Source of the DNA: Eggerthellaceae bacterium
GTDB lineage: Bacteria; Actinomycetota; Coriobacteriia; Coriobacteriales; Eggerthellaceae
Reading direction: 5' to 3'
NCBI GenBank assembly: GCA_017440565.1
Contig: JAFSHA010000098.1
Location: forward strand, 1 to 56,690
DNA: 56,690 nt
Made by a program: the position numbers and the translations under genes. A model generated the notes under the pieces. That model ran no database searches. It was not told where the DNA came from and saw only the letters and a list, made by a program, of their open reading frames with translations. Below, piece by piece: positions 889-37,314 of the stretch. Numbering within the stretch: position 1 is the stretch's first letter; the number at the start of each line of letters is the position of its first letter.

Positions 889-937
889 AGTTTCGACTTC
901 CGCTGAGCCGGGGCGCGGCCTCGGGCTCGGCCTTGCG

Positions 938-969
938 GCCCCGCCGGTCACCCGATCGGCGGGGCTTTT
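938..969 (+). terminator. Rho-independent terminator after the NrfD-family gene
   Basis: GCCCCGCCG at 938-946 pairs with CGGCGGGGC at 957-965 and is followed by TTTTGCTTGTTTT. Position, 85 bases after the stop, fits the end of the reductase operon. Confidence 0.8.
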
Positions 970-977
970 GCTTGTTT

Positions 978-1175
978 TGGCAGGAACCGACGGTTTGTCT
1001 CAATCGGGCCCTTCCGTGGCAGGAATCGACGGTTTGGAGCACCCAAACCGTCAGTTTCTGCCAGAAAGTGGCAGGTTTCGACGGTTTGGATCAGTTTCGG
1101 GGCCTTCCGACTGCTCCAAACCGTCAGTTTCTGCCACGCGGAAGGCAAATCGAGACAAACCGTCAGTTTCTGCCA
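978..1175 (+). repeat. 198-bp folded repeat element, copy A (six 20-bp units)
   Basis: Six near-copies of TGGCAGAAACTGACGGTTTG are present. Units at 978-997, 1017-1036 and 1069-1088 are forward; those at 1044-1063, 1117-1136 and 1156-1175 are reversed. The order forward, forward, reverse, forward, reverse, reverse nests as one outer stem enclosing two hairpins, so a single strand can form a three-way junction. The spacers next to the outer units also pair in part, with TCTC after unit 1 facing GAGA before unit 6. A second copy with identical unit offsets lies inverted at 25821-26018. No protein is encoded convincingly. It could be a non-autonomous mobile element or a structured RNA; function unknown. 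Confidence 0.85.
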
Positions 1176-12276: not shown

Positions 12277-12292
12277 AGCTCCACCAAAAACA

Positions 12293-12456
12293 CATGATAG
12301 AGGTGCGTCCTCCATCAGTAGCCTCGATCAAGCGACGGGAATCGCGGGGTGAAAGGGGAGGTCGCCGAAGGGCCGCTGGGGTTTCCCGACTCCTCGGAAC
12401 CTGGAGCTCAGGAGAACATCCTGCGCGCTGTCGCTTTTTGGCGGAGAGCTGTCATG
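12293..12456 (+). promoter_or_regulatory. Lysine riboswitch (L box)
   Basis: The conserved lysine aptamer blocks are present in order: ATAGAGGTGCG at the start, AGTA at 12317-12320, GGTGAAAGGGGAGGTCGCCG around 12348-12366, GCTGGGG, GCTGTCGCT, and GGAGAGCTGTCATG at the end. The ends pair as P1 (CATGATAG with CTGTCATG). It lies upstream of an NhaC-type transporter, a known setting for this class. An intrinsic terminator at 12486-12513 provides the off state. Recognised by eye; a covariance search would confirm it. Confidence 0.88.
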
Positions 12457-12485
12457 GTTGGGCCAGAATATTCCATCATTCTCGT

Positions 12486-21275: not shown

Positions 21276-21591
21276 GGTTGCGTTGACCTGCGGGAGCGCC
21301 CCGAGCCGCAGCCGCGTTCCGGGCACCCGCTTTCGCTGCTCGCCTTTGGCTCGTGCGCTTCGCTACCTCATGCTTTTATGGAGCGTCCTTCGGGCGCTAT
21401 CAGGAATGGTGTTCAGAGTGCCCCGAACGCGGCTGCGGCTCGGGGCGTTGTCGCTGTCCCGTTGCTCATCAGAGATACCGCTTTCGGGTGAGCAAATGTG
21501 GATTAACGGGCGGTTTCCTTCGCTGACTTATGGAAATGTGGCAAAATAGAAAAGTTGACTATTCGCGCATATTCCGAAGGAGCCCGTGTCA
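21276..21591. other. Spacer after tgt, largely an inverted-repeat element
   Basis: 316 bp without a gene. 21297-21447 is an inverted-repeat element (described separately). The rest holds the upstream region of secDF, with AAGGAG at 21577-21582. Confidence 0.5.
21297..21447. repeat. 151-bp element with 30-bp terminal inverted repeats
   Basis: The left arm at 21297-21326 (CGCCCCGAGCCGCAGCCGCG...) matches the reverse complement of the right arm at 21418-21447 in 29 of 30 positions. They enclose 91 bp containing a smaller AGCG...CGCT hairpin. No coding sequence is evident. It could be a MITE-like insertion or an outsized transcription terminator for tgt. Confidence 0.75.
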
Positions 21592-25683: not shown

Positions 25684-25808
25684 CCCTCTGTTAAACCACC
25701 ATTGACATGGGCGATTTAGTCTGCCGTGGAAGCGCAGATCGGATGCGAGGTTTTGGCGGAAGGCTCGGAACCCCATCAGGCGCATGTCAATTCTGGTTTA
25801 ACAGAGGG
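25684..25808. repeat. 125-bp element with 26-bp terminal inverted repeats
   Basis: The left arm CCCTCTGTTAAACCACC... (25684-25709) equals the reverse complement of the right arm (25783-25808) in 24 of 26 positions, around a 73-bp non-coding core. It ends 12 bp before the 198-bp repeat. It fits a MITE-like element; no transposase is nearby. Confidence 0.75.
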
Positions 25809-25820
25809 GAAAGCGGGTCG

Positions 25821-26018
25821 TGGCAGAAACCGACGGTTTGTATCGATTCGTCTCTTCCTTGGCAGAAACTGACGGTTTGTCCTGGTCTAAAGGCCCCGAA
25901 ACTGATCCAAATCGTCAAAACCTGCCATTTCCTGGCAGAAACTGACGGTTTGGGTAGTCCAAACCGTCAGTTTCTGCCACGGAAGGCCCCGATCGATACA
26001 AACCGTCAGTTTCTGCCA
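25821..26018 (-). repeat. 198-bp folded repeat element, copy B (inverted relative to copy A)
   Basis: Units are at 25821-25840, 25860-25879, 25908-25927 (divergent), 25933-25952, 25960-25979 and 25999-26018. Read on the minus strand, the unit offsets (39, 27, 25, 48, 39) are identical to copy A at 978-1175, and the internal GATCAGTTTCGGGGCCTT is shared. The outer spacers pair as TATCGAT with ATCGATA, where copy A has TCTC with GAGA, so the stem is kept by paired changes. Confidence 0.88.
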
Positions 26019-26083: not shown

Positions 26084-26161
26084 CGTTCCTGAACGTTCAT
26101 CTCGGACAGAATGGGGTGGTTTTCGCCTTCCGACCCGTTCCTGAACGTTCATCCGGGACAG
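26084..26161 (+). repeat. Pair of direct repeats, 52 bp apart
   Basis: CGTTCCTGAACGTTCATC occurs at 26084-26101 (last base differing by alignment) and 26136-26153, each followed by a GGACAG. It contains the palindrome GAACGTTC. It lies about 200 bp upstream of the zinc-ribbon gene and could be a paired binding site or a remnant repeat. Confidence 0.55.
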
Positions 26162-26357: not shown

Positions 26358-28151
26358 ATGTATTGCATGCACTGCGGGCAGCAGCTTCCCGATGATGCGA
26401 AGTTCTGCTTCAGCTGCGGCGAAAAGCCTCGGGGGACATCGTTCGTTGAGGAACCGGTGGGAAACGCTGGGAAAACGGCTGGCTCGAGCAGCGATTCGCC
26501 GAAGGAGCCTATCTGGCAAGACGAACCCGAACCCGAGCCTGATCCGACGCCTGCGCCCGAGCCGACTCCCGCACCGGCGCCCGAGCCGACTCCTGCGCCG
26601 GCACCCGAACCCGAGCCGACGCCCGAATTGCAGCCGGTTCCTGAACCGCAGCCCGCGCCTGTGCCCGAGCCAGATCCCGCACCGCAGCCGACGCCCGCAC
26701 CCCAGCCCGCGCCTGCGCCTGAACCAACTCCCGCGCCGCAGCCGGCTCCCATTCCGACACCCGCGCCCGCACCGCAGCCGACGCCCGCACCCCAGCCCGC
26801 TCCTGCGCCCGCTCCCGCGCCTGTGCCGGATTCCGACCCTGCCTTCGCGCGAGAGAAGGCCGCCAAGACCTCGAGGATCCCCAAGATTCCGAACGCCCCG
26901 AAAATCCCGAAGGCACCCAAGGTTGCCGCGCCCGCCCCGAGCAAGAAGCTCATCGGCATCGTGGTCGGCATCGTGGCCGTAGCTGTCATTCTGGCCTACG
27001 CCCTGTTCGGTGGCGATTCCTCGGCCGACCGCGACCGCAAAGTGGAAATCCCCGATCCTGAATACTACTTCGCCCTGCCGATCAGCTCGATCGAAGAGGA
27101 CGACGGAGTCACCACCTACACCATGGACGCCAACGGCGACGAGGATCTGAGCGACCAGGTATACGCCTACATCGACATCCTGCGCCACGACTACGGGTTC
27201 CTCCTCAACTCAAACGAGGAGGACGAGGGATACATAAACGCCGACCTGTTCAGCGACGACGTTTTGGACGAGGTGCAGGTAATCTACCTCCACGACTCGT
27301 ACGGCAACAGGCTCGCAGTGAAGACGACACGCGATGTGGTCTTTGTAGGTGGCGTGCGCTACGAGGGCCCCAGCGGGTTTGCCGCGGAAAGCAATGCGAG
27401 CGAGAACGAAGTCGATGCCCCCGATGAAGGCCTCGAAGAACCCGTCCATCAGGAGGAGCCGCAGGTCGACCCTTGGGCAACGGGCGACCTTTCCGTGCTG
27501 CCCGACTTCGCAGAGTTCGACCAGACAGGCACGTTCAGCTATTCGACCGCGTTTTTCGCCTCCACCACCTACGATGTGGACAGGCTGTATTTCTCGTACA
27601 GCTCCAAGGACGTTAACGCCGTCTACCAGGCGAATCACTACGTCGAGATGCTCTACGATCTGGGCTGGCAGCTTGAGTTCATCGATGAAGACAACGCCTT
27701 CTACCTGTATCACCCTGACGTGGACGCACCCAGCCTTCCCGATGCGGAGAGGGCGCAGATTTTCATTGAAGGCCACGTCAACTCCACAGGCGACACGGCA
27801 TTCGTGAGCTTCATGCTGCCCGAGGAAATCTGCATCAAGAACTACGAGGACAAGTGGCAGTGGAACGTGGAGTGGCGCGAGAACCGCGAGAAGGAGAAGG
27901 CTGAGGAGGAGAGGAACTCTTCAAGCTCGAGCTCCAGCTCATCCTCGTCTTCGTCCTCGAGCAGCTCGTTCAACCGCGACCTGTACGACAACGACCCCAT
28001 CTGCGGCGTATGCAACGGAGACGGCGACTGCAGCAAGTGCGGCGGAAGCGGCTATCTGTACAGCAGCGCCTCGGATGAAAAGGACCGCAACTGCTACAAG
28101 TGCAACGGCAGCGGCAACTGCCGAAGCTGCGGCGGAGACGGTCGCCTGTAG
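26358..28151 (+). CDS. Large zinc-ribbon membrane protein with Pro-rich stalk, poly-Ser linker and DnaJ-like CxxCxGxG tail
   Basis: The protein has 597 residues. An N-terminal zinc ribbon (MYCMHCGQQL ... FCFSCGEK) is followed by about 100 residues of PEP/PAP/PQP repeats, a KIPKAPK basic stretch and one transmembrane helix near residues 197-220 (LIGIVVGIVAVAVILAYALF). Two acidic domains of unknown fold follow, then about 16 consecutive Ser. The C-terminus has CGVCNGDGDCSKCGGSGY and CYKCNGSGNCRSCGGDG, like the DnaJ zinc finger. Start ATG 26358 has AAAGGGG upstream. It shares the ribbon-helix plan with 2476 and 3386. Function unknown; two zinc sites on opposite sides of the membrane are predicted. 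Confidence 0.8.
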   Translation: MYCMHCGQQLPDDAKFCFSCGEKPRGTSFVEEPVGNAGKTAGSSSDSPKEPIWQDEPEPEPDPTPAPEPTPAPAPEPTPAPAPEPEPTPELQPVPEPQPAPVPEPDPAPQPTPAPQPAPAPEPTPAPQPAPIPTPAPAPQPTPAPQPAPAPAPAPVPDSDPAFAREKAAKTSRIPKIPNAPKIPKAPKVAAPAPSKKLIGIVVGIVAVAVILAYALFGGDSSADRDRKVEIPDPEYYFALPISSIEEDDGVTTYTMDANGDEDLSDQVYAYIDILRHDYGFLLNSNEEDEGYINADLFSDDVLDEVQVIYLHDSYGNRLAVKTTRDVVFVGGVRYEGPSGFAAESNASENEVDAPDEGLEEPVHQEEPQVDPWATGDLSVLPDFAEFDQTGTFSYSTAFFASTTYDVDRLYFSYSSKDVNAVYQANHYVEMLYDLGWQLEFIDEDNAFYLYHPDVDAPSLPDAERAQIFIEGHVNSTGDTAFVSFMLPEEICIKNYEDKWQWNVEWRENREKEKAEEERNSSSSSSSSSSSSSSSSSFNRDLYDNDPICGVCNGDGDCSKCGGSGYLYSSASDEKDRNCYKCNGSGNCRSCGGDGRL

Positions 28152-28215: not shown

Positions 28216-28233
28216 ACGGCGTATGAATTCTGT

Positions 28234-28392
28234 TTCAGGGCGGGGTGAAATTCCCCACTGGCGGTAATCGGAAACTGGCGCAAGCTGGTGAACGAAAGCC
28301 CGCGACCCTCAGGTAATCGCGCAAGCGGCGCCCTGGGGCTGACATCGGTGAGATTCCGAGGCCAACGGTTACAGTCCGGATGGAAGAGGCAG
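28234..28392 (+). promoter_or_regulatory. FMN riboswitch (RFN element)
   Basis: The RFN core is plain: TTCAGGGCGGGGTGAAATTCC at the start, CCCCACTGGCGGTAAT, GCCCGCGACCCTC, GGGGCTGACATCGGTGAGATTCCG-type strand near 28336-28360, and GGTTACAGTCCGGATGGAAGAG at the end. It lies upstream of a RibU-type gene and is followed by an intrinsic terminator at 28486-28530, so FMN would reduce riboflavin uptake by termination. Confidence 0.95.
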
Positions 28393-28485
28393 ATATTCGC
28401 GTGAGCGTTCGCCGTGGGCGGGCGCGTCGAGTGCAATGGCGCAGCGCGTAGCCGCTTGCCGAAGGTGCTCGTCAAGCGAATTTCC

Positions 28486-37045: not shown

Positions 37046-37314
37046 GCGAAAACGAGCCAACGAGCCAGGCTCATTGGCTCCAGATGGTTATGTTCAAAAA
37101 ACGCATCCTTGTAGGCACATAGCCGCCCATCGCGTTCGAAAAAGCCAAGTTTACTGGACATTTAACCTTTGAATGTTGAATATCTTTCCTCCCATAGGCA
37201 GAAATCGACGGTTTGTCATGCCAACCTGCCTACAAGGATGCGCTTTTTGAACATGAACCTGAGGGACGGGGCGGGGCGTAGTCGGGCGGACGACGCCCCG
37301 CTGACCGCAAAAGG
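37046..37314. other. Spacer between convergent genes, with hairpin and inverted-repeat element
   Basis: No gene. GAGCCAA (37054-37060) pairs with TTGGCTC (37074-37080) as a possible terminator without T-tract. The rest is the 174-bp element at 37086-37259 (separate entry). Confidence 0.5.
37086..37259. repeat. 174-bp element with about 33-bp inverted repeats, carrying one unit of the 198-bp repeat
   Basis: The left arm (37086-37117, GGTTATGTTCAAAAAACGCA...) matches the reverse complement of the right arm (37227-37259) except for one indel and one mismatch. Inside, AGGCAGAAATCGACGGTTTG (37196-37215) is a single copy of the 20-bp unit found six times in each 198-bp element. No coding sequence. 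MITE-like. Confidence 0.78.

Follow-up and report, generated by a model that had tools for sequence, protein, structure and literature searches.

The 198-bp sequence found twice in the 56,690-bp window (the whole stretch of DNA analyzed) is probably a non-autonomous, dispersed palindromic mobile element of MITE- or REPIN-like type that ends exactly at the first and the last of its six 20-bp units. The family to which it belongs is real, consists of non-autonomous palindromic repeats built on an unusual plan of six units, and is undescribed within the searches made. Among the origins proposed in a first-pass annotation of the window, a non-autonomous transposon with units 1 and 6 as its ends was best supported, by dispersed intergenic copies, sharp ends at these units and unrelated flanks, and also because the congeneric G001 lacks the element and a simpler relative differs in presence/absence between two Paraeggerthella species. 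The mobility of the 198-bp form itself would follow from its dispersal, its sharp ends and its absence from relatives.

Architecture and copies of the 198-bp element

Copy A and copy B, the latter on the minus strand, share 85% identity across exactly 198 bp (BLAST of B against A; E value, 3.5e−59, a likeness beyond chance), and the repeat search returned the same arms, 978 to 1175 and 25821 to 26018, as 198 nt with 85% complementarity. All six units of A match TGGCAGNNNNYGAYGGTTTG perfectly. B carries the mirror set, in which unit 4 has one mismatch. Direct reading and the repeat search agree in this with the annotated pair of 198-bp copies, each with six 20-bp units at the same offsets. The features are as follows.

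978..1175, plus strand: copy A, 198-bp six-unit element (direct reading, repeat search, BLAST, unit pattern)
978..997, plus strand: unit 1 of A, outer left end (unit pattern; boundary from nine copies aligned with their flanks)
1017..1036, plus strand: unit 2 of A, 5′ side of hairpin 2/3 (unit pattern)
1044..1063, minus strand: unit 3 of A, 3′ side of hairpin 2/3 (unit pattern)
1069..1088, plus strand: unit 4 of A, with variant core TGGCAGGTTTCGACGGTTTG, a core also present in Paraeggerthella (unit pattern)
1089..1116, plus strand: 28-nt loop of A from unit 4 to unit 5, with 83% mean pairwise identity among copies
1117..1136, minus strand: unit 5 of A (unit pattern)
1156..1175, minus strand: unit 6 of A, outer right end (unit pattern)
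25821..26018, minus strand: copy B, 198-bp six-unit element (direct reading, repeat search, BLAST, unit pattern)
25999..26018, minus strand: unit 1 of B (unit pattern)
25960..25979, minus strand: unit 2 of B (unit pattern)
25933..25952, plus strand: unit 3 of B (unit pattern)
25908..25927, minus strand: unit 4 of B, one mismatch (unit pattern)
25860..25879, plus strand: unit 5 of B (unit pattern)
25821..25840, plus strand: unit 6 of B (unit pattern)

The window's genome (G000) is an Eggerthellaceae draft of 172 contigs, 95% complete with 4.8% contamination. Allowing up to 2 mismatches, TGGCAGNNNNYGAYGGTTTG had 73 matches in this genome against 6 for a reversed control. BLAST of copy A identified nine full-length copies, namely A, B and those on contigs C10, C12, C60 (two), C65, C67 and C127; in this C127 copy, unit 1 is damaged. 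Further non-standard copies comprised one with an internal deletion (C127), one with a 112-bp tandem extension (C12) and a decayed remnant on C28 that kept units 1 and 2, followed by another repeat array. Pairwise identity between the full-length copies was 79 to 94% (mean, 87%). When the nine were aligned, identity ended sharply at the two termini, TGGCAG and CTGCCA, and the arrangement of the asymmetric interior was unchanged in nearly every copy.

All copies were intergenic, each with different neighbors, and the gene orientations around them (genes called with a codon-usage script) did not depart clearly from those of the genome's own intergenic gaps. No target-site duplication was identified, as abutting direct repeats had a mean length of 1.8 nt compared with 1.6 nt for mismatched flank pairs. 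Outside the ends, pyrimidines predominated at positions −3 and −2 (15/18 and 16/18 ends, respectively); the element may have a slight preference for such targets, or the unit may extend further out. The flanks of A and B are unrelated, with no sequence in common, so the pair does not belong to a longer ordinary segmental duplication. The locus of A is itself duplicated, positions 1 to 894 of the window being 94% identical to positions 1 to 903 of C28; this region carries a gene for an NrfD-type membrane subunit, and the terminator and first unit downstream of it also match.

RNA folding gave −126.9 kcal/mol compared with −64.4 kcal/mol for shuffled sequences (z = −13). The minimum-energy fold of copy A was a nested form (units 1/6, 2/5, and 3/4 paired), and the consensus fold of the nine copies was a cloverleaf (1/6, 2/3, and 4/5). 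Five base pairs of the cloverleaf had changed on both sides, a score reached in 11 of 500 column shuffles, against two in the nested alternative, whose score was reached in 468 of 500. Copy C65 gave the clearest covariation, with TGGCAC in unit 2 and GTGCCA in unit 3. Covariation modestly favors the cloverleaf over one long hairpin, which lends the annotated fold, with its outer stem 1/6 and hairpins 2/3 and 4/5, a modest degree of support. Nine sequences are few, and a palindrome can be corrected against its neighbor at replication; the covariation therefore supports pairing of units 2 and 3 in DNA or RNA and proves no RNA function.

By the tests done, the element is not a REP, a REPIN, a CRISPR or an Rfam family. 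Its units lie in both orientations and its spacers are common to different copies, where a CRISPR array has direct repeats and unique spacers. REPs of the GTAG and CGTC superfamilies are 20- to 40-bp palindromes that carry GTAG or CGTC as an unpaired tag (PMC3733652); the unit TGGCAGNNNNYGACGGTTTG carries no such tag, and its only stem of its own is AAACC-GAC-GGTTT, in some versions. The annotation had excluded both of these, as well as a simple inverted repeat; the last point stands for the six-unit plan, yet the element can also be read as a conventional inverted repeat, with 64-bp arms and a 70-bp center.

No Rfam family was above the gathering threshold for the element, and no described match was found in the literature on Eggerthella and Paraeggerthella repeats, cloverleaf mobile elements or terminator-targeting IS. 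That no named family has this plan accordingly held for Rfam and this literature, but the related kinds (MITE, REPIN, BIME, and TIR-flanked tyrosine transposases) are well known. BIMEs of Escherichia coli are mosaics in which palindromic units alternate in orientation and are separated by defined spacers. The present element has a comparable mosaic layout, although its units are not REPs, their sequence and length are unrelated, and the plan is a fixed one of six units in 198 bp. In parvovirus terminal repeats, an outer stem closes two internal hairpins. This likeness is one of shape only; with no virus, no Rep gene and no sequence relation, parvoviruses are not proposed as relatives.

Simpler relatives and evidence for movement

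Within Eggerthellaceae, the unit was found in G000, Paraeggerthella (G008 and G112), the genera g31 and g5, and G074, nearly always as an inverted pair. The full-length 198-bp element was absent from the congeneric G001 and from all 60 relatives searched, among which two weak partial matches were identified, both in Paraeggerthella hongkongensis (G008). The exact two-unit pattern had no match across 84,980 species, the inverted-pair pattern was found in P. hongkongensis alone when compared with the genome contig collection, and no inverted unit pair 5 to 35 bp apart was present in viral contigs. Outside Eggerthellaceae, a class-wide search for the unit returned single matches per genome, about as frequent as those of a reversed-pattern control. 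The wider search proposed in the annotation, and its caveat that related genomes might hold no further copies, were answered in part: additional copies exist and are dispersed, but among the genomes searched the 198-bp form is confined to that of the window.

In other Eggerthellaceae genera, a simpler relative consists of one inverted unit pair around a center that often bears CCWGGTC. P. hongkongensis carries ∼43 such elements of near-constant size, in which the inverted unit pair spans 160 bp and outer arms (TGCGCACGAAAAACCGCC) extend the element to ∼208 bp. The central CCWGGTC was present in 19/23 elements compared with 3.8% in shuffles. The ends of the Paraeggerthella form carry AAAAACCGCC/GGCGGTTTTT and resemble a bidirectional terminator. 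Genus g31 has shorter forms, several of them centered on GACCAGGCATTATGC, and further forms of unit-bearing element occur in genera g5 and g7. One of the g31 relatives occupies a locus shared by three species of this genus, which would fit old, immobile copies as well.

The sister species Paraeggerthella G112 had 6 unit matches compared with the ∼43 elements of P. hongkongensis. At locus L090, a P. hongkongensis copy is absent from G112, with flanks 93% and 94% identical. A second copy (L136) is also absent, and both flanks align (86% and 90%); the junction is not clean, since some flanking bases are missing from the empty G112 site along with the element. From these alignments, the two loci appear to represent a presence/absence polymorphism of the simpler Paraeggerthella relative. 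At a third locus, both Paraeggerthella species carry the element within a block of 98% identity, probably through transfer.

Candidate movers and routes of transposition

As a mobile element, the 198-bp sequence would depend on a DNA-processing enzyme supplied in trans, with the 20-bp unit as its recognition site, a putative site that the six units would offer repeatedly. Copying or movement may take place with the element folded as a single strand, a three-way junction formed by stem 1/6 and hairpins 2/3 and 4/5. Such a single-strand (HUH-like) route is favored over cut-and-paste by a DDE transposase by the absence of target duplications. Of the annotated recombinase-binding array, what survives is the unit as a probable protein-binding site.

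No autonomous element was identified in these draft genomes; the unit pairs in the loci read were all short (∼160 bp in P. hongkongensis), and none was a long-range pair with a transposase of its own. A 1.7-kb unit pair in G112 contains an unrelated IS3-family IS (C1:18742-20480; L139/L118) that was first taken as the autonomous parent. This IS had inserted into a 160-bp element, with a TSD-like CAAAC, and is therefore not the parent; its own ends are GGGG(A)TGCGGCAG. An inverted pair 1.9 kb apart on C41 is not an IS: an ATPase-like gene (assigned by reading its translation) lies there between two copies of another element, 166 bp long.

A specific form of the preferred explanation, and one compatible with it, is that the element is an HUH element proper (RAYT/TIRYT-like), derived in REPIN-like fashion from a tyrosine-transposase transposon; we regard this as a tentative possibility. 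It would account for the absence of target duplications. REPINs, the RAYT-mobilized REP dimers, are likewise short inverted units between genes, non-autonomous and with a population-like intragenomic spread (PMC3116915, PMC3733652), from which the present element differs in having no GTAG/CGTC tag, mostly no stem of its own and six units rather than two. TIR-type units of TIRtrons (TIRYT repeats) also exist as single units, dimers or groups (PMC3733652), and in the congeneric G001 a RAYT-like transposase gene (L107, 1063 to 2278) is bounded by multi-unit arrays in inverted orientation, in which a 17-bp unit, GTGACAAATCAGCTCG, is repeated in tandem. As the driver this gene was rejected, its multi-unit flank being of different sequence and confined to one contig.

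Single unit copies in G000 read GTGACAAACCGTC, another G000 repeat starts with GTGACAA and contains GGGGACAG, and several G000 repeats, single unit copies included, have GTGACAA at one end. These readings fit GGGGWSAS, the motif that TIRYT repeats carry (PMC3733652); the unit itself is without this motif. Going by these motifs, the GTGACAA ends and the RAYT-like flank of G001 may be taken as leads for an HUH-type origin, not as proof.

Searches with PF01797 (Y1 transposase) returned one match in G000, IS200-like, a count from a draft assembly in which a gene could be missing, and none in P. hongkongensis, despite its ∼43 copies. RAYT was rejected as the driver on this ground, and the absence of a Y1 gene from this carrier, another difference from REPINs, counts against an HUH-type origin unless the gene was lost. 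Neither in G000 or P. hongkongensis nor at the Y1 loci was a Y1 gene flanked by the repeat. RAYT-like loci in five relatives were bounded by their own inverted repeats and not by the TGGCAGNNNNYGACGGTTTG unit; the flanks of the Y1 loci L104 to L108 hold other inverted repeats, and the only unit-like sequence at Y1 loci was one match with 3 mismatches; no TIRYT gene bounded by TGGCAGNNNNYGACGGTTTG was found.

A classical MITE, that is, a deletion derivative of a DDE IS with TIRs moved by cut-and-paste, is an unlikely origin. The element is short and dispersed in many copies, has no coding capacity, and carries long terminal inverted repeats that start with TG and end with CA. NEMIS/Correia, RUP, ERIC and YPAL/RU-2 MITEs are similarly intergenic sequences of 100 to 200 bp that form long stem-loops and encode no protein, and YPAL lies at or beside dyad symmetries (PMC2229807), as the present element lies beside terminator hairpins. 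In contrast to these MITEs, neither genome showed a target duplication, the terminal repeats are arrays of a unit that recurs six times in both orientations, unlike a simple TIR, and no parent IS was found: none with TGGCAG...CTGCCA ends lay in the loci read, and the one candidate was the IS inserted into a 160-bp element.

Small palindromic repeats are common in bacteria; those in the literature consulted mostly have one or two units, with REPINs tied to RAYT transposases. The conserved asymmetric six-unit plan and the ∼43 relatives in P. hongkongensis, whose genome returned no Y1 match, point to a mover not yet recognized in Eggerthellaceae, a family of gut bacteria. Whether these sequences amount to a new class, namely a multi-site three-way-junction mobile repeat of Eggerthellaceae whose 20-bp unit, offered repeatedly in both orientations, is processed as folded single-stranded DNA by a non-Y1 enzyme, is doubtful. 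On this view a single genome would have produced such an architecture from more than one unit, the other being a 24-bp unit placed three times forward and three times inverted at 52-bp steps.

Terminators, alternative roles and neighboring palindromes

Copy A is abutted by a hairpin resembling an intrinsic terminator.

937..977, plus strand: intrinsic-terminator-like hairpin with TTTTGCTTGTTT, abutting copy A (direct reading, comparison of loci)

Similar hairpins abut the element on C65, on C127 (first copy) and at the paralogous C28 locus; they are of a type resembling GGCCCCGNCGRTCNNNCGATCGGCGGGGCCTTTGC, with the element directly after. In a repeat census of ∼0.61 Mb of the window's genome, taken as stretches, 4/4 matches to this hairpin type had the element after them. 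As the A and C28 loci are paralogous (94% over 900 bp), the association amounts to three independent sites.

These hairpins, the very stable RNA fold, the terminator-like Paraeggerthella ends, the unit sitting singly in other palindromic elements of the same genome and the one copy held at the same locus across three g31 species would all suit a BIME/REP-like host element, acting as an RNA 3′-end structure, a terminator partner or a site for a chromosome-organizing protein, with its spread incidental. Such a role appears improbable as the main explanation, given that copies were not clearly enriched between convergent genes in either genome, the distribution is patchy with copy numbers that differ widely between sister species, G001 lacks the element, and orthologous sites are empty for the Paraeggerthella relative. 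An effect on neighboring genes, as an RNA 3′-end hairpin or the neighbor of a terminator, is likely secondary to movement as a non-autonomous element. If the units act only as RNA 3′-end structures, the family still informs how terminators and mobile repeats are joined.

A structured regulatory RNA or noncoding RNA gene, the annotation's large structured RNA, would agree with the stable fold and the covariation in hairpin 2/3. It is very unlikely, because the element is multi-copy with unrelated, unconserved neighbors and without an Rfam match, only weak microRNA-type matches appearing below the gathering threshold; G-U versus A-C changes also showed no clear strand preference in a manual count. 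An invertible switch, in which inverted units act as recombinase sites that flip the interior, has inverted site pairs at constant spacing to commend it and is hardly credible, with an inconsistent promoter context and sites that are grouped by six, not two, in the window's genome.

In the window's genome, single units are also embedded in inverted-repeat elements of two further kinds, one of which lies in the window.

37196..37215, plus strand: solo unit-like sequence AGGCAGAAATCGACGGTTTG within a 166-bp inverted-repeat element (unit pattern)

This 166-bp element (37089 to 37254) has 28-bp inverted ends (ATGTTCAAAAAACGCATCCTTGTAGGCA) and further copies on C41 (two), C61 and C132. A 148-bp inverted-repeat element on C28 (L062, 1598 to 1745) contains a terminator hairpin and one unit copy. 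Arrays of a second multi-unit family, at L246 (C28; 1027 to 1333) and L230 (C11; 375 to 629), repeat a 24-bp unit (TATCCGAAAACGCACGACTTGTCA) in 51- to 52-bp steps, three times in forward and three or four times in inverted orientation. With single units in other elements and this second family, the intergenic space of the genome is partly a mosaic of palindromic modules.

Beside copy B lie a ∼125-bp inverted-repeat element (25684 to 25808; CCCTCTGTTAAACCA...), with several copies in the sampled genome, and two 26-bp repeats (CGTTCCTGAACGTTCATCYSGGACAG) 52 bp apart (26084 to 26161). Elsewhere in the window, Rfam identified lysine and FMN riboswitches (12290 to 12459 and 28227 to 28395, respectively), a 37-nt inverted repeat with 89% complementarity and arms 91 nt apart spans 21290 to 21454, and coding repeats with 18-bp spacing (26532 to 26860) give a zinc-ribbon protein a Pro/Ala-rich stretch.
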